From the IMG/VR virus record IMGVR_UViG_3300012030_000004, positions 1 through 63,839 of that record: a stretch of 63,839 nt of DNA. One strand, 5' to 3'. Both the position numbers and the translations under genes were made by a program. Shown piece after piece: positions 3,263 to 62,723 of this stretch; within the stretch, counting starts at the first letter, position 1; every line of letters starts with the position of its first letter. This stretch comes from a virus. The notes under the pieces are model-generated. The model made no database searches. It was given only the letters and a program-made list of their open reading frames with translations, and was not told the DNA's origin.

Positions 3263-3628
3263 GTGAGGCTATTAGTTACTGGCTCAAGAGAACCCTCTGA
3301 TCCTGGGTATGTCAGAGCCGCCCTTTTGTTAGTGGCTTCATTCCATCACCCTAACGTGACCTTAGTTCATGGAGGAGCGAGAGGTGTGGATACGCTCGCT
3401 GGGGAAGTAGCTAACGAGAAGCAATGGAAGGTGGAGCCTCATCCCGTGACCCCCGAAGACTTTTCTTTACACGGCAAAAGAGCCTACTTTCTGAGGAATA
3501 AGAAGATGGTTGACCTTGGAGCAGATCTGTGCTTTGCTTTCCCTCAAGGGGCTAGTCCCGGCACCCGTATGACCATAAGATTAGCCGAAGAGGCCGGAAT
3601 TGAGACGCGGGTGTTCGAGCTCCAGTGA
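3263..3628 (+). CDS. SLOG-family (DUF2493-like) nucleotide-binding protein
   Basis: 121 residues, GTG at 3263 abutting the previous stop, GGAGAAG upstream. Rossmann-like start MRLLVTGSRE, then LVHGGARGVDTLAGEVA and a later FPQGASPGTRMTIRLAEEAG. These are hallmarks of the SLOG/DprA-like fold of YspA/DUF2493 proteins, thought to bind nucleotides or nucleotide-derived ligands. Exact role unknown. Confidence 0.75.
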   Translation: MRLLVTGSREPSDPGYVRAALLLVASFHHPNVTLVHGGARGVDTLAGEVANEKQWKVEPHPVTPEDFSLHGKRAYFLRNKKMVDLGADLCFAFPQGASPGTRMTIRLAEEAGIETRVFELQ

Positions 3629-53192: not shown

Positions 53193-54430
53193 CCCTAGAG
53201 CAAGTAAAAGAAAACCTCATCACTGAGAATGAGGTAATGGAGCGTCTGGGAAAGTTAGAACCCTTAGGCTCCGTGGCTCTCACCAAAGACAGTAAGGTCA
53301 AGTTTGAAATCGACCCCGAGTGGAGCCTTGACGTAGACACGTTGGAAGACTCCGATCCCGTCAAGGTGCATCTCACTATCGACGGTCAAGAACGCCAGCT
53401 TTCGAAGGAAGCTTTCTTCCAGTCGGCTGTTAACATGGGTCTCCCGATGTCCACTGTGAAGCGCGTTCCTCACGACGCTGTACAGGGGTTCCTCAACAGG
53501 ACTTACAGAGACTCCGGGAAAGAGTACAACGTTCTCTCCGTAGATGGGCTCGCCTCTGCGTTCACTCCCCCCACCATCATCCCCTTCTCAAATCTTGAGC
53601 TGATGGAGCGTGTGCTGGGGTCTATTCGGTCAACCTACGGTTCAGACTCTGAGGTCTATGCTGATTTCAAGTTCAATCACTCGCTGACTCGAACCGATGT
53701 CCGCCTCATTGTTCCAGCCGAGTTCCGCAGAATGCAGGACACCCACATGGATGATGTTCCTCATGGGCAGGAAGATGATTGGGCCGCAGGGATCCACCTG
53801 TCCAACTCTCTCATTGGGAAGTCTCAGACGACTCTCCAGGCCTACATGTTCCGCTGGTGGTGCTCCAACGGGTGCACTACTAAGCTGGAGTCCGTAGGGA
53901 AGTGGGATCGACGCAGTAATGTTCACCGCACGGACGAGGTCTATCGGTGGGCCGCAGAGGCTGTCAATGAAGTTCTGGGTGGGATGGAAGAGCGCTTTGA
54001 CCAGGTTCAAGCCCTGACCTCTCTTGAGGTGCAGGACCCGGCCACTGCCCTGAATGAGGTCTTCGGTCACTACTCGTTACCTGCTCGTCAGCGCAACCGG
54101 ATCCTTGACACGGTCGTTTCCACGTCAGATCTGACAATGTATACGCTCATGCAGGCAGTGACAGAGGCGGCTAATGATCCTGCCCTATCTCCAGGGGACG
54201 TTAACCGACTCCTTCATGTAGGTGGAGACTTTGCAGGAGAGGGAGTCCTCGACCCTATCAAGGCTCGTGTCTTCCGTTCTGGTCAAATGGCTGGCCCTGA
54301 CGCTCCCAACCCCTTTGAGATCTCTACTAGGATCGAAGTAGGCAATCTTATCGGTGGGGCTGATCTCTCGCTCAGGATCTCCCCCCTCCTTGATAATCCG
54401 CTGAAGCTCAGCGGCAGTGTGAGGGACTGA
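53186..54430 (+). CDS. DUF932-like phage/plasmid protein
   Basis: 414 residues, GTG 53186, GGGAGG 9 nt upstream. LSKEAFFQSAVNMGLPMSTV, SVDGLASAFTPPTIIPFSNL, then AAGIHLSNSLIGKSQTTLQA and FRWWCSNGCTT match the order of DUF932 proteins (G..v.NS..G..s......R.vC.NG). Such proteins are common on phages and plasmids, next to recombination genes; their activity is not established. Confidence 0.6.
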   Translation: MVTLEQVKENLITENEVMERLGKLEPLGSVALTKDSKVKFEIDPEWSLDVDTLEDSDPVKVHLTIDGQERQLSKEAFFQSAVNMGLPMSTVKRVPHDAVQGFLNRTYRDSGKEYNVLSVDGLASAFTPPTIIPFSNLELMERVLGSIRSTYGSDSEVYADFKFNHSLTRTDVRLIVPAEFRRMQDTHMDDVPHGQEDDWAAGIHLSNSLIGKSQTTLQAYMFRWWCSNGCTTKLESVGKWDRRSNVHRTDEVYRWAAEAVNEVLGGMEERFDQVQALTSLEVQDPATALNEVFGHYSLPARQRNRILDTVVSTSDLTMYTLMQAVTEAANDPALSPGDVNRLLHVGGDFAGEGVLDPIKARVFRSGQMAGPDAPNPFEISTRIEVGNLIGGADLSLRISPLLDNPLKLSGSVRD

Positions 54431-55029
54431 TGAAATTCAAGCAGGTGAGACACCTCCTTTGGTGTGATTTGGAGACATCAAGCCTCCCAAAAAAGAATGA
54501 CTACTCCGGTGTTCATATTTTGGAAGTTGGAGTTATTCTTACTGATATGTCTCTCAATAAGTTGGGAGGATACAGTGAAGTAATCAAGATGACCGACGAG
54601 GCCGCTGACTCTCTGCGCAAAACCCCTGGAGTTTTGGAGATGCACAAGAGTAGCGGCCTCTTGAAGGACTGCGTCAATGCGACGATGACAGTCCCGGATG
54701 TTGAGTCTGAGATCCTGGCGTTGCTTGATGACAACAACGTCGAGGTCCAAGCGGTAGCCCTTGCAGGCTCGGGAGTGACAGCGTTCGATCATCCCGTGAT
54801 CAAGGAGCATATGCCTCTCCTTGCAGAGGCTCTGACGTACTTCAGTTATGACATTGGCTCTTTCCGCAGAATGTTCAAGCTTGTCAGTGGGGGAACGCCT
54901 ATCGTCAATCCCTCCAACCACAGTTATGGGCCGACCAAGAAGCATCGAGCTATGGAGGACATCAAGGCTCATCTGGAGGAGGCTGAGGAATACATGGAGG
55001 CTGTCAAAAAGCTCCTTCCTCCCTTCTAG
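54430..55029 (+). CDS. DEDDh exonuclease, oligoribonuclease-like
   Basis: 199 residues, ATG 54430 overlapping the previous stop. LLWCDLETSSLPKKNDYSGV (D-x-E), HILEVGVILTDMSLNKLGG, EMHKSSGLLKDCV, GSGVTAFDHPVIKEHMPLL (Asp) and KKHRAMEDIKAHLEEAEEYM (H..D) follow oligoribonuclease (Orn) motif by motif, including the M-H-x-x-S-G-L segment. Orn degrades very short RNAs to nucleotides. In a phage it could recycle host RNA; its presence with a Ro/Y RNA system is notable. Confidence 0.8.
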   Translation: MKFKQVRHLLWCDLETSSLPKKNDYSGVHILEVGVILTDMSLNKLGGYSEVIKMTDEAADSLRKTPGVLEMHKSSGLLKDCVNATMTVPDVESEILALLDDNNVEVQAVALAGSGVTAFDHPVIKEHMPLLAEALTYFSYDIGSFRRMFKLVSGGTPIVNPSNHSYGPTKKHRAMEDIKAHLEEAEEYMEAVKKLLPPF

Positions 55030-59875: not shown

Positions 59876-60576
59876 CAGAAATTCAGTTCTCAGATATTGC
59901 CGTAAATCTCATTGGCTCTATGGGATCTGACGCTTCTATTGTGCAGGCGGCTCGTGTTTCTCTTTCCGGAGAAAACGAGGTTGAAATGACCTCAAAGGAA
60001 GAGGGTCTTATCAATTATTTGATGAGAAATAAGCACGGGTCTCCCTTTGAACACACTACTCTCAAGTTCTATGTCAAAGCCCCCATCTTTGTGTTCCGTG
60101 AATTCCATAGACACAGGATCGGATTCAGTTACAATGAGATGAGTGGCCGATACACCAAGCTGAAACCAGAGTTCTATCTTCCTTCTTGGGATAGGCCTTT
60201 GATCAATGTGGGGACTAGTGCCTCCCCTGATTTTGCTCCTGGGGATGAGTACCTCGTCACCAAACTTCGAGAGACTCTCGCTTCTCAGTATCGAAGTGCT
60301 TGGAATGATTATGAAGAGCTTATTGCTATGGGGGTTGCCAACGAGGTAGCCAGGGTGCTCCTTCCTGTGGGAATCATGAGCCAGATGTATGTCACGTGTA
60401 ATGTTCGGTCCATGATGAGCTTCCTGTCTCTGCGCACCCAGGATGACCGCGCGGCTCATGTCTCGAAGCCTCAGCTGGAGATCCAGATGGTGGCTCGTCA
60501 GATGGAGGAGGCTTTTGCTGGGCTCTTCCCTGTCACCTACGCCAGCTACAACACCAACCAGCGTGTGGCTCCGTAG
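59872..60576 (+). CDS. thyX: Flavin-dependent thymidylate synthase
   Basis: 234 residues, TTG 59872 overlapping the kinase stop. Carries the ThyX motif RHRIGFSYNEMSGRY at about 80-94, preceded by SPFEHTTLKFYVKAPIFVFR, and a C-terminal RSMMSFLSLRTQDDRAAHVS with the FAD/dUMP-binding residues. Makes dTMP from dUMP using FAD and methylenetetrahydrofolate. With the kinase before it, this ensures thymidine nucleotides for phage DNA. Confidence 0.92.
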   Translation: MTEIQFSDIAVNLIGSMGSDASIVQAARVSLSGENEVEMTSKEEGLINYLMRNKHGSPFEHTTLKFYVKAPIFVFREFHRHRIGFSYNEMSGRYTKLKPEFYLPSWDRPLINVGTSASPDFAPGDEYLVTKLRETLASQYRSAWNDYEELIAMGVANEVARVLLPVGIMSQMYVTCNVRSMMSFLSLRTQDDRAAHVSKPQLEIQMVARQMEEAFAGLFPVTYASYNTNQRVAP

Positions 60577-60577
60577 A

Positions 60578-60588
60578 GGCCGATAGTA
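60578..60588 (+). promoter_or_regulatory. GGCCGATAGTA element upstream of Y RNA locus
   Basis: Exact copy of the dispersed element, 2 bp after the thyX stop and 29 bp before a sigma-70-type -35. The Y RNA locus therefore seems to have both an early/constitutive and a late-type promoter. Confidence 0.6.
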
Positions 60589-60616
60589 GAAAGTTCAAAA
60601 TTTTTGCCCTCTGAGC

Positions 60617-60645
60617 TTGACAAGGGCCCGGAGGGTCTGTAGTGT
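60617..60645 (+). promoter_or_regulatory. Sigma-70-type promoter of the Y RNA/Ro locus
   Basis: TTGACA-17-TAGTGT. Transcription would begin about 60652, just before Y1 (60674), and could run through Y1, Y2, Y3 and the Ro gene. Confidence 0.7.
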
Positions 60646-60673
60646 CATCAACATAACTTAACAGCGCGAGATT

Positions 60674-60757
60674 TACACGAGCCGAAGAGGCAGTCGGTTA
60701 TCATTCAAACTGAAATTATGCCCTCGGGCTATCCGACCCTCACCCCATGTTCGTGTG
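60674..60757 (+). ncRNA. Y RNA 1 (short form, no tRNA-like module)
   Basis: Lower stem 60675-60682 pairs with 60749-60756 (8 bp, one G-U). Then comes the conserved unpaired CGAA facing an ACCCCAU strand, a 4-bp helix (60687-60690 with 60738-60741), a CA bulge, a 5-bp helix (60693-60697 with 60733-60737) and the loop start UUAUC. This is the Ro-binding core of Y RNAs (human: CCGAAGG ... GAGUUAUC). The remaining loop holds only a small GCC/GGC hairpin. Stems match Y2 and Y3 in position but not in sequence. Confidence 0.85.
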
Positions 60758-60764
60758 TTTCTTA

Positions 60765-60875
60765 GAATGAGCCGAAGAGGCATCGGTTATCCCACTGAAA
60801 ATGAGAACCTGGCGGTTCGATTCCGTCATTAGTTGGAACAGGTTATTTTTCCGATCTTCACCCCCATGCTCATTC
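60765..60875 (+). ncRNA. Y RNA 2 (with a T-arm-like branch)
   Basis: Perfect 8-bp lower stem (60765-60772 with 60868-60875), unpaired CGAA facing ACCCCCAU, helix 60777-60780 with 60856-60859, one bulged C, helix 60782-60786 with 60851-60855, then GGUUAUC. The distal part forms an extended stem (60798-60802 with 60845-60849; 60806-60810 with 60840-60844) carrying a tRNA T-arm-like hairpin (60811-60827, 5-bp stem, 7-nt loop UUCGAUU). No D arm or acceptor is seen, so only part of a tRNA-like module is present. Confidence 0.85.
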
Positions 60876-60879
60876 ACTC

Positions 60880-60922
60880 GCCTCTCTTGGAGGTTCATCG
60901 GGTTCGACTCCCGATGGAGGCA
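60880..60922 (+). ncRNA. tRNA acceptor/T-arm minihelix between Y2 and Y3
   Basis: 6-bp acceptor-like helix (60880-60885 with 60916-60921, last pair U-G) stacked on a 6-bp T stem (60897-60902 with 60910-60915) with the 7-nt loop UUCGACU: 12 bp in total, the length of a tRNA acceptor/T stack. No D or anticodon arm; 11 nt link the strands. No CCA encoded. It could be a tRNA relic or a mark recognised by RNase P and RNase Z to separate Y2 from Y3 (inference). Confidence 0.5.
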
Positions 60923-60924
60923 CA

Positions 60925-61058
60925 AAAACTGAACCGAAGAAGTATTGGTTATCCATGCTAAGGAAGAGGTCACGGGTTCGAATCCCGTCATCAGACCTAG
61001 TCTGATGTAGCTCAGAGGCAGAGCGCTTAAACCCAATCTTCACCCCATGTTCAGTTTT
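60925..61058 (+). ncRNA. Y RNA 3 with circularly permuted tRNA-like module (YrlA-type)
   Basis: Perfect 10-bp lower stem (60925-60934 with 61049-61058), unpaired CGAA facing ACCCCAU, helix 60939-60942 with 61038-61041, bulged U, helix 60944-60948 with 61033-61037, then GGUUAUC: the Ro-binding core. The loop holds tRNA parts in permuted order: variable-like GAGGUC, T arm 60972-60988 (loop UUCGAAU), acceptor 3' strand 60989-60995, CCUAG, acceptor 5' strand 61001-61007 (7 perfect pairs), UA, and D arm 61010-61024 (GCUC/GAGC, loop AGAGGCA). A short CUUA/UAAG helix joins it to the Y stem where an anticodon arm would be. This is the layout of bacterial YrlA RNAs. Confidence 0.92.
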
Positions 61059-61060
61059 AC

Positions 61061-61085
61061 CACATGTTCAGAAATACTGAACCGA
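61061..61085 (+). other. Y-like hairpin/remnant just before the Ro gene
   Basis: CACATGTTCAG and ACTGAACCGA copy the 3' and 5' ends of Y3's lower stem in reversed order and form a 6-bp hairpin (61066-61071 with 61077-61082, loop AAAUA). It may be the scar of a lost fourth Y RNA, or a leader element that competes with Y3 pairing or is bound by Ro for self-control. Confidence 0.45.
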
Positions 61086-61103
61086 GAGAAAGGATGAACA
61101 CCT

Positions 61104-62723
61104 ATGGCTAACAATAGCCTCAAGTCCGTCACAACCCGACCCGGAATGACGGCCACTCCTCAGACGCAGAAGGCGGCTAAGGGGCAGAAGGAGAACAACG
61201 CAGGCGGCTACACGTTCACTGTCTCAGACATGGACCGAGCCAAGCGTTTCTTGATCCTTGGATCTGACTCGTCGTTCTACCAGAGCGGCCAGAAGCTCTC
61301 CAAGGACAACGCCAAGAACCTGATCAAGCTTGCGAAGTCTGACCGTGCCCAGGAGCTCACTGACCTGATTGTGGAGATCTCCACTCAGGGTCGTGCGGCC
61401 AAGCAGGACCCCGGTCTGTTTGCACTGGCCGTCGTGGCTTCCCATGGCGCGACTGAGGACAAGCAGTACGCTCTGTCCAAGCTCTCTCAGGTAGCCCGTA
61501 CCGGATCCTCGCTGTTCACGTTCATCACTTACGTGGAGCAGTTCCGAGGGTGGGGGCGTGCCCTGACCAAGGCGGTTTCTTCTTGGTACACGGAGAAGTC
61601 TGTGGACAAGCTCGCCTACCAGACGGTGAAGTACCGTCAGCGTGATGGCTGGACTCACCGGGACGTGTTCCGCAAGGCGCACCCTCAGAAGGGCAAGAAC
61701 GGAATCTCCGAAGGAGAGGATGCTCGTGCTTTTGAGGCGCTGGGTGAGTGGATTCTCCGAGGTGAGTTGTTGGAGAACACTCCTAAGCTTGTTCGCGGCT
61801 TCACGATGGCCCAGACTGCTTCTAAGTCTGAGCTTCCTGCTCTGATCAGGGAGTACGGACTGTCGTGGGAGATGCTTCCTACCGAGGCTCTGAACGACAA
61901 GAAGGTCTGGGAGACGTTGCTTCAGGGCAATGTTCCTCTCGGGGCCCTGTTGCGTCAGCTTCCTCGTTTGACGAAGCTCGGCATCGTCGCGCCTATGGGT
62001 GGAAAGACTGCTGAGATCGCCAAGAGGATCACTGATCCTGAGGAGCTCAAGCGTGCCCGTATCCACCCCTTGAACCTTCTGGTTGCCCAGAAGACCTACG
62101 GGGCGGGGCACAGCCTCCGGGGCAATTCCTCCTGGGCCCCCAACCAGAAGATCGTGGACGCTCTTGACAAGGCCTTCTACCTGTCCTTCAAGACGGTCGA
62201 GCCCGCTGGCAAGCGCACTCTGATTGGGTTGGATGTCTCCGGCTCGATGGGCTGGGCTTCAGTGGCCGGGGTTCCTCTCATGCCTTCCGAGGCAGGAGCG
62301 GCCCTTGCGTTGGTCATTGCCAACACGGAGCCTGAGGCGCACATCTTCGGATTTGCGGACACCTTCCGTGAGTTGGGCCTCTCCCCAGGGATGCGACTTG
62401 ACCAGGCCCTGCGGCAGACAAGTTTAAGGACGTTCGGAGGCACGGACTGTGCTCAGGCCATCGAGTACGCTCGTACTCACAAGTTGGAAGTGGACACGTT
62501 CCTTGTGATCACAGACAACGAAACCTACGGGGGTCGGAGTCACCCACACGAGGCCTTGCAGAGGTACCGTCGAGAGACTGGCATCGATGCGAAGCTCATC
62601 GTGCTGGCGACTACTGCTTCCGAGTTCAGCCTCGCGGATCCCAGTGATGGTGGGATGCTGGACATCGCTGGGTTCGACTCAGCAGTTCCTCAGCTGATCA
62701 ACGAGTTCTCTCGGGGACTCTGA
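61104..62723 (+). CDS. rsr: Ro60-like TROVE-domain RNA-binding protein (Rsr)
   Basis: 539 residues, the size of animal Ro60 and bacterial Rsr. ATG 61104 with GAAAGGA upstream. Residues about 35-365 are the TROVE HEAT-repeat ring: DMDRAKRFLILGSDSSFYQS, ALAVVASHGATEDKQYALSK, FTFITYVEQFRGWGRALTKA, WYTEKSVDKLAYQTVKYRQR and GWTHRDVFRKAHP, all hallmark Ro segments. Residues about 370-539 are a VWA domain with an intact MIDAS: DVSGSMG (Asp377), GGTDC (Thr447) and ITDNE (Asp471). Ro binds misfolded RNA 3' ends in its ring and Y RNA on its outer surface; in bacteria Y RNA tethers Ro to polynucleotide phosphorylase. Directly downstream of three Y RNAs. Confidence 0.95.
   Translation: MANNSLKSVTTRPGMTATPQTQKAAKGQKENNAGGYTFTVSDMDRAKRFLILGSDSSFYQSGQKLSKDNAKNLIKLAKSDRAQELTDLIVEISTQGRAAKQDPGLFALAVVASHGATEDKQYALSKLSQVARTGSSLFTFITYVEQFRGWGRALTKAVSSWYTEKSVDKLAYQTVKYRQRDGWTHRDVFRKAHPQKGKNGISEGEDARAFEALGEWILRGELLENTPKLVRGFTMAQTASKSELPALIREYGLSWEMLPTEALNDKKVWETLLQGNVPLGALLRQLPRLTKLGIVAPMGGKTAEIAKRITDPEELKRARIHPLNLLVAQKTYGAGHSLRGNSSWAPNQKIVDALDKAFYLSFKTVEPAGKRTLIGLDVSGSMGWASVAGVPLMPSEAGAALALVIANTEPEAHIFGFADTFRELGLSPGMRLDQALRQTSLRTFGGTDCAQAIEYARTHKLEVDTFLVITDNETYGGRSHPHEALQRYRRETGIDAKLIVLATTASEFSLADPSDGGMLDIAGFDSAVPQLINEFSRGL

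Follow-up and report, generated by a model that had tools for sequence, protein, structure and literature searches.

A phage Ro locus with three head-diverse Y RNAs and a permuted Ro-docking stem at the ro start site

This study concerns a virus record of 63,839 bases (IMG/VR record IMGVR_UViG_3300012030_000004, positions 1 to 63,839, referred to as the window), which contains phage replication and recombination genes together with a ro gene for a Ro60/Rsr-type protein and an array of Y RNAs directly upstream of it. From predicted folds and a comparison of related loci, we show that three Y RNAs of the window combine one Ro-binding stem with three different heads, that such forms recur in other phages, and that a fourth, permuted version of the docking stem lies over the predicted ribosome-binding site of ro. 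The stronger of the results is the docking stem found where ro itself starts. We consider it probable that this is a phage Ro ribonucleoprotein locus, in which free Ro would repress its own translation at the leader and the Y RNAs would titrate Ro. The main features are as follows.

60675-60756 (+ strand, 82 nt): Y1, the Ro-binding stem topped by a short hairpin (short class), from its fold and a counterpart in phage Cece
60765-60875 (+ strand, 111 nt): Y2, Ro-binding stem with a T-arm without acceptor or D-arm (lone T-arm class), from its fold and counterparts in loci L006 and L003
60927-61056 (+ strand, 130 nt): Y3, the Ro-binding stem topped by a tRNA-like head in permuted order (YrlA class), from its fold and a match to Rfam RF02553
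61062-61094 (+ strand): ro leader element, a permuted Ro-docking stem consisting of a hairpin, CGAGAG and the Shine-Dalgarno sequence AAAGGA (61089-61094)
61104-62723 (+ strand): ro, a Ro60/Rsr-type protein of 539 aa with TROVE and Ro60 vWA domains (Pfam)

Y RNA heads in the window and across ro loci

The ro product combines the two domains by which Ro60/Rsr proteins are recognized, TROVE (PF05731, E 4.3e-46) and a Ro60-type vWA (vWA_Ro60, PF25045, E 4.7e-55), both above the curated cut-offs. Its relatives were found in 353 of 50,697 phage records, the best of them (53% identity) in a Microbacterium phage; the Ro of Microbacterium phage Cece is 52.6% identical to that of the window. Y1, Y2 and Y3 follow each other in tandem on the + strand upstream of this gene, and the same two-helix base with a bulge appears in all three folds, in agreement with the original prediction of a common Ro-binding stem. 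Bacterial Y RNAs carry the bulge motif GNCGAAG (G-NCGAAG-type) on a basal two-helix stem. A bulge of this type is present as GCCGAAGAG in Y1 and Y2 and as ACCGAAGAAG, with A replacing the first G, in Y3; on the 5' side it follows the stem and precedes a second helix ending in GGTTATC, and on the 3' side the letters TCACCCC...ATG are followed by the return strand that closes each RNA. The array also stands beside a ro/rsr gene, ro being directly downstream. The interval originally assigned to the three RNAs (60698-60850) takes in no more than the heads of Y1 and Y2, and Y3 lies outside of it.

The three heads differ in how clearly they are defined. The head of Y1 is a short hairpin, as had been proposed, and it is kept with other letters in Cece (L006 4004-4087; hairpin GCC-CUCG-GGC vs. 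GGC-GAAA-GCC), where the Y1 region has a DNA match of 75%; its fold scores z -1.85 relative to shuffles (when folded one base later). The head of Y3 (z -2.51) is likewise tRNA-like as predicted, with a T-arm, an acceptor helix and a D-arm in the permuted order of YrlA, an arrangement found in Y3 only, and it was aligned with counterparts in Cece, Sparky and Cashline. The Rfam YrlA model (RF02553) matches Y3 at 60964-61030 (34.9 bits, E 6.4e-6, model positions 23-87 of 114), which is under its gathering score of 69, and gave no match for Y1 or Y2 at E<=1. At gathering thresholds, Rfam found nothing in the window. Three sub-threshold Rfam matches were discounted as chance or as resemblance to a T-arm: tmRNA at 60889-60993 (18.9 bits vs. 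gathering 47), Plastid-ycf2 at 60880-60923 on the - strand (27.3 vs. 65.7) and mir-145 at 61036-61096 on the - strand (19.4 vs. 50). The proposed head of Y2, an extended stem with a lone T-arm, is seen in the minimum-energy fold, where the T-loop UUCGAUU stands on an irregular extended stem, but the T-stem has a probability of only ~0.41, the T-arm is absent from the centroid, and the RNA folds no better than shuffles (z -0.25). The Cece counterpart of Y2 (L006 2161-2268) has the same arrangement with a T-stem probability of 0.97-0.98, and the L003 counterpart (3494-3601) keeps the letters of the T-loop between complementary stem strands, yet has a T-stem probability of only 0.15-0.16. The head of Y2 is the weakest part of an otherwise confirmed observation.

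For a broader view, ro loci were gathered from IMG/VR, bacterial and archaeal genomes and annotated phages; a single-protein query gave 5 loci and an alignment query gave more. Removal of near copies (by shared 15-mers) left 103 viral and 69 bacterial loci, among which related loci remain. Loci left out were duplicates (L001, L018, L019, L022, L024, L030, L045), one with a distant Ro (L017), and partial or weak ones (L138, L155, L166, L171, L175-L178, and L193 as partial). The survey of Y RNAs covered 102 viral loci that had 400 nt or more of upstream sequence and 67 bacterial loci, at a candidate score of at least 15.5 and with the expectation taken from dinucleotide shuffles. Upstream of viral ro genes it yielded 141 candidates vs. 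1.6 expected: 74 lack a T-arm, 10 have a T-arm alone and 57 have both T-arm and acceptor (medians of 73, 112 and 135 nt in length), as assigned by a mechanical rule that places some heads wrongly. More than one head class is present in 29 of the 40 viral loci with at least two Y RNAs. Bacterial loci gave 74 candidates vs. 1.6 expected, and 14 of 22 loci with at least two Y RNAs were mixed; no candidate reached this threshold in 25 viral and 24 bacterial loci. Mixed heads are the common state of multi-Y ro loci, and Cece has counterparts of all three forms of the window, so the proposal of different heads on one Ro stem extends well beyond a single record.

The division of labor that had been read into these heads is partly supported by this comparison, and it has to be weighed against the possibility that Y1 and Y2 derive by decay from copies of a tRNA-like Y RNA and have no separate role, the array only raising Y RNA dosage. 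The low T-stem probabilities of Y2 and its L003 counterpart, and the shuffle-like fold of Y2, speak for such decay, and debris may exist here in the form of a truncated tRNA-like element between Y2 and Y3:

60880-60924 (+ strand, 45 nt): tRNA-like minihelix, a T-arm with an acceptor-like GCCTC/GAGGC (z -1.95)

This minihelix fills the gap between the two Y RNAs, 4 nt past Y2 and 2 nt ahead of Y3; in its minimum-energy fold CCTC pairs with a nearer GGAGG instead, and it may represent a tRNA remnant or a processing signal. Nevertheless, head classes differ in length across viral loci (although only 10 of the 141 candidates are of the T-arm-only class), compensating letter changes preserve the Y1 hairpin in Cece, and the T-arm of Y2 is kept there on a stem that is re-spelled and strongly paired. 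The recurrence of the mixture, together with the Cece counterparts of all forms, speaks against reading Y1 and Y2 as nothing but decayed forms of Y3, and we regard decay as somewhat unlikely.

A docking stem at the ro start site

The leader of ro contains the hairpin GTTCAG-AAATA-CTGAAC (61066-61082; stem 61066-61071/61077-61082), ahead of the start codon at 61104. It corresponds to the Y stem with the strand order swapped: the 3' strand (T-GYYC) comes first, then a short loop, then the 5' strand (GRRC), which in a side-by-side reading of ro leaders runs into CGRR and then into the Shine-Dalgarno sequence. In the context of Y3, the hairpin has a probability of 0.89-0.93. By position and covariation it is a candidate operator, a structured and conserved element over the gene's own start site in which both sides of the stem change.

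The descriptor used to count this element was altered three times and tuned on these data, with the expectation recomputed each time, and the held-out sets consist of 11 and 40 loci. The final descriptor is positive in 33 of 103 viral leaders vs. 2.1 expected, one of these (L033) being judged a chance placement and two (L080, L081) doubtful. Its predecessor, the third descriptor, gave 22 of 83 viral leaders vs. 0.77 expected (L033 and L184 being wrong placements) and 4 of 69 bacterial ones vs. 1.2; elsewhere in the same viral loci it occurs in 214 of 8,139 stretches of 60 nt, corresponding to 2.2 expected in 83. The first descriptor, which missed the window's own element, gave 11 of 73 viral leaders vs. 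0.9 and 7 of 69 bacterial leaders vs. 1.6. Among 11 phages chosen only by their Ro protein, the element was seen by eye in 10, including the unpaired CG after the stem; Myrna is without it.

Pairing and covariation were assessed in ten leaders, in which 98% of the cells are paired, falling to at most 43% once slid by one column. Double-change cells number 13 vs. 4.6 in shuffles (0 of 500 as high), and covariation is observed on three of five measures. An alignment of 22 held-out leaders by MAFFT lost the stem register, and pairs were therefore counted hairpin by hairpin (27 hits, two without placement, 25 distinct; the pattern demands the CG after the stem); partners change together at pairs 3 and 5. 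A covariance model built from the ten leaders (R1) was run on loci outside its training set. In the first held-out set, 11 annotated phage loci, 7 hits reached E<=1, and every one of them coincides with the annotated start of ro on the + strand. The 40 further loci yielded 36 hits at E<=5: 24 immediately ahead of the ro start codon, one ahead of the second half in a split ro, and 11 elsewhere. Four of these 11, in L199, L200, L202 and L203, fall on the first ro codons rather than the leader (L199 and L202 at 1471-1503; 15.2 bits), perhaps reflecting the same control inside the coding start, or chance. In the window, R1 matches at E<=5 in just two places, at the start of ro (27.7 bits) and at the junction of Y1 with Y2, 60745-60784 (16.1 bits). 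Among 74 bacterial loci there were 65 hits at E<=5, five of them at the rsr start (L116, L133, L134, L142, L161).

The ro gene is split at the same conserved place in two distant phages, L003 (3995-5695) and L227 (1447-3246), where the residues ...KYRSRVV and ...KYRSRTV are followed by MTNTAWTHRDV and MSNTWRHADL. Each half has its own start codon, with a docking hairpin before each. Leaders also resemble the Y RNAs of their own locus. In a wider set of 25 loci, which includes related rows and leaders placed by eye (L005, L013, L184-L187), the nine stem-end letters of a leader fit the 5' arms of its own Y RNAs at 6.89 of 9 vs. 6.07 for those of other loci (0 of 5000 permutations as good); 29 leaders had been named for this set and 4 were dropped, as no upstream Y RNA scored at least 14.5. 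The strict set of 16 loci, which omits the rows placed by eye and keeps one Streptomyces phage, gave a weaker result (6.88 vs. 6.32; 10 of 5000 permutations). Letters shared within a locus by Y RNAs and leader include AGAC|CG in L031, AGGCTGA in L013 and GGGTCGAAA in Lululemon.

Several observations weigh against an operator of this kind and against the locus as we read it. The window's hairpin is only modestly stable (z -1.61) and lacks the obvious helix 2 of Y RNAs. The final descriptor is negative in 70 of the 103 viral leaders and shows little excess in bacteria (5 of 69 vs. 1.9 expected), and the looser second descriptor gave weaker contrasts (19 of 83 viral vs. 4.5; 9 of 69 bacterial vs. 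4.4). The invariance of C|CG is partly by construction, being demanded by the descriptors. In the ten leaders, double-change pairs (4 vs. 2.9) and further pair types (8 vs. 7.3) did not beat shuffles; Streptomyces phages account for 8 of the 11 held-out loci, and among the 40 further loci many are mutually similar, some repeating phages of other sets (e.g., L190 and L062 are the same contig). R1 is non-specific in bacteria, many of the other inspected hits being Y-Y junctions or tRNA-framed Y RNAs and some lying in coding sequence. A promoter for the array is poorly defined, the second hexamer of the following candidate matching at 3 of 6 positions, and a consensus promoter scan of 60400-61200 reported none.

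60617-60645 (+ strand): candidate promoter ahead of the Y array, TTGACA, 17 nt, TAGTGT (weak; read from the sequence)

Since R1 also matches true Y-Y junctions, in the window (60745-60784), in L006 (4077-4115) and in bacterial Y arrays, the leader hairpin might be the leftover junction of a tandem array, in which the 3' strand of one Y RNA meets the 5' strand of its neighbor, or simply a start-site hairpin of the usual kind. Against this stand the short-loop stems whose partners change together, a promoter-like TTGACA-17-TAnnnT directly upstream of the element in L008, L011 and L055, its recurrence at the second start site of both split ro genes and its presence in 10 of the 11 phages chosen by protein alone, and we find this explanation rather improbable. 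The leader also repeats strands of Y3 (CATGTTCAG and CTGAACCGA), allowing an exchange of 6-8 bp, through which Y RNA strands could pair in trans with the leader and the Y RNA itself, not Ro, would switch translation. However, the exchange is limited to those few base pairs, the intramolecular hairpin is predicted with high probability beside Y3, and the unpaired CG after the stem, which pairing does not need, is kept in 10 of 11 unselected leaders (by eye), leaving little room for such a switch. That the Y RNA calls are chance folds is barely credible, despite the lack of Rfam matches at gathering thresholds and the shuffle-like Y2, given the excess of candidates over expectation, the YrlA match of Y3 and the conservation of the Y1 region in Cece.

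Proposed control of Ro and the relation to tRNAs

In the mechanism that we propose for the Ro ribonucleoprotein locus, the tRNA-like head of Y3 would tether Ro to PNPase or another tRNA-binding partner, as reported for YrlA-type heads, while Y1 would cap Ro without a tether and Y2 perhaps act likewise or in an intermediate manner. Ro without a Y RNA would bind the leader hairpin, cover the Shine-Dalgarno sequence and stop further ro translation. Because the docking stem is at the ribosome-binding site of ro, free Ro would be contested between ro mRNA and any Y RNA, whatever its head, and the level of Ro would track the supply of Y RNA: heads may set what Ro does, and the total Y dose how much Ro is made. 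The earlier suggestion that Y1 and Y2 act as gates or decoys would gain something concrete from such competition. The tandem Y RNAs and the minihelix may be cut apart by tRNA-processing enzymes. If the operator on ro mRNA is real, it would represent a translational control of Ro, offer an uncomplicated means of reporting Ro-Y binding in live cells and account for how the amounts of Ro and Y RNA could be kept in balance; with loci that carry several heads, the tether-and-gate idea can be tested directly.

A phage-encoded partner nuclease was sought with Pfam in 27 window proteins, which include replication and recombination proteins, Thy1, Cpn10 and a band-7 protein, among others. One RNase_T-type exonuclease (54430-55029) was found, and no PNPase, RtcA, RtcB or RNA ligase. 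ARAGORN reported no tRNA gene over the whole window (1-63839), vs. at least one in the examined stretch of 65 of 123 viral ro loci.

Some other loci carry Y RNAs in an unpermuted order, the reverse of the YrlA layout: acceptor, D-arm, a Ro-docking hairpin in the place of the anticodon arm, T-arm, acceptor. A scan for this native topology gave rows in 28 loci and one hit in shuffles, with many chance rows, and we name only those where D-arm, acceptor and docking hairpin are all clear.

L158, 1523-1633: unpermuted Y RNA, ending in GCCA and standing after a promoter-like TTGACA-18-TACGAT
L059, 3532-3659 and 3671-3804: unpermuted Y RNAs (the latter by eye)
L134, 2265; L169, 2444; L124, 2694; L137, 2836: unpermuted Y RNAs

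Other overlaps between Y RNAs and tRNA annotation were also observed. In L031 (2660-2792) the head of a Y RNA is like a whole unpermuted tRNA, reported by ARAGORN as tRNA-??? with a two-letter anticodon at 2686-2760. In Microbacterium phage Magritte, tRNA-Arg(tct) gene 117 (76028-76104; L013 2476-2552) falls on the 5' portion of a Y RNA with a tRNA-like head at 2479-2612 and is probably a misannotation; the annotated pseudo tRNA-OTHER of Trina (L187 1640-1848) overlaps Y candidates at 1561-1699 and 1775-1909. Gaps of 1-5 nt between a Y RNA and a tRNA gene were seen in 11 cases among 152 Y RNAs of 123 viral loci (a raw count, related loci included), and in 7 of the 11 the neighbor is a similar tRNA-Asp. 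The minihelix of the window (in 60876-60926) fills that same position, which, together with the abutting tRNA genes, suggests that tRNA enzymes may cut the Y array.

A more general form of the proposal is that phages and bacteria plug a portable Ro-docking hairpin into several RNAs: minimal Y RNAs, lone-T-arm Y RNAs, permuted tRNA-like Y RNAs, unpermuted tRNAs with the hairpin replacing the anticodon arm, and the ro start site, or both start sites when the gene is split. Ro would sense its unoccupied pool and repress its own translation, with head-diverse Y RNAs setting its level and partner. We judge this somewhat better than an even prospect.

Comparison with known Ro systems

With the YrlA class and the Salmonella rsr locus, the window shares the Ro-binding basal stem, the D/T/acceptor head (in Y3) and the presence of several Y RNAs per locus, Salmonella having YrlA and YrlB in rsr-yrlBA-rtcBA (PMC7790460). 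The YrlA-type head is reported to tether PNPase and to be a substrate of TruB and DusA, and it is the only head with a named partner, PNPase, in the literature covered; the structure of Salmonella YrlA is named there as PDB 6CU1 (PMC8394870). Unlike the YrlA/YrlB locus, the window belongs to a phage, has three kinds of head next to one another, one of them a lone T-arm, and carries a docking stem at the start site of ro, and, unlike rsr-yrlBA-rtcBA, its 27 proteins scanned with Pfam include no RtcA or RtcB. As stated in a 2020 paper (PMC7790460), work on what Ro and Y RNAs do in bacteria had been confined to Deinococcus.

In vertebrates, human Y1, Y3, Y4 and Y5 likewise have a common Ro-binding stem with other functions mapped to other domains (PMC4726728; PMC4030889), although vertebrate Y RNAs are described as not homologous with the bacterial ones (PMC4726728). 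The leader element invites comparison with a different group of systems. Ribosomal proteins have autoregulatory operators on their own mRNAs. The hfq gene of E. coli also has one (PMC6348989), and in both the likeness to the proposed ro operator is that the protein's RNA site is in its own mRNA near the start codon. We found no literature report of the leader element or of Ro/Rsr autoregulation, in a search outside of which lay the main bacterial Y RNA papers (Chen 2014; Sim and Wolin 2018; Sim 2020). As in the window, the Y RNAs reported earlier for mycobacteriophages (Chen 2014, as cited in PMC12282133) and the candidates of Listeria phage CKA15 (PMC12282133) adjoin a phage ro; unlike here, head diversity within one locus and a leader element are unmentioned in the excerpts of PMC12282133. 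Overall, phage Y RNAs and multi-Y loci are already known, and the three Y RNAs of the window are new members in an uncommon mixture.
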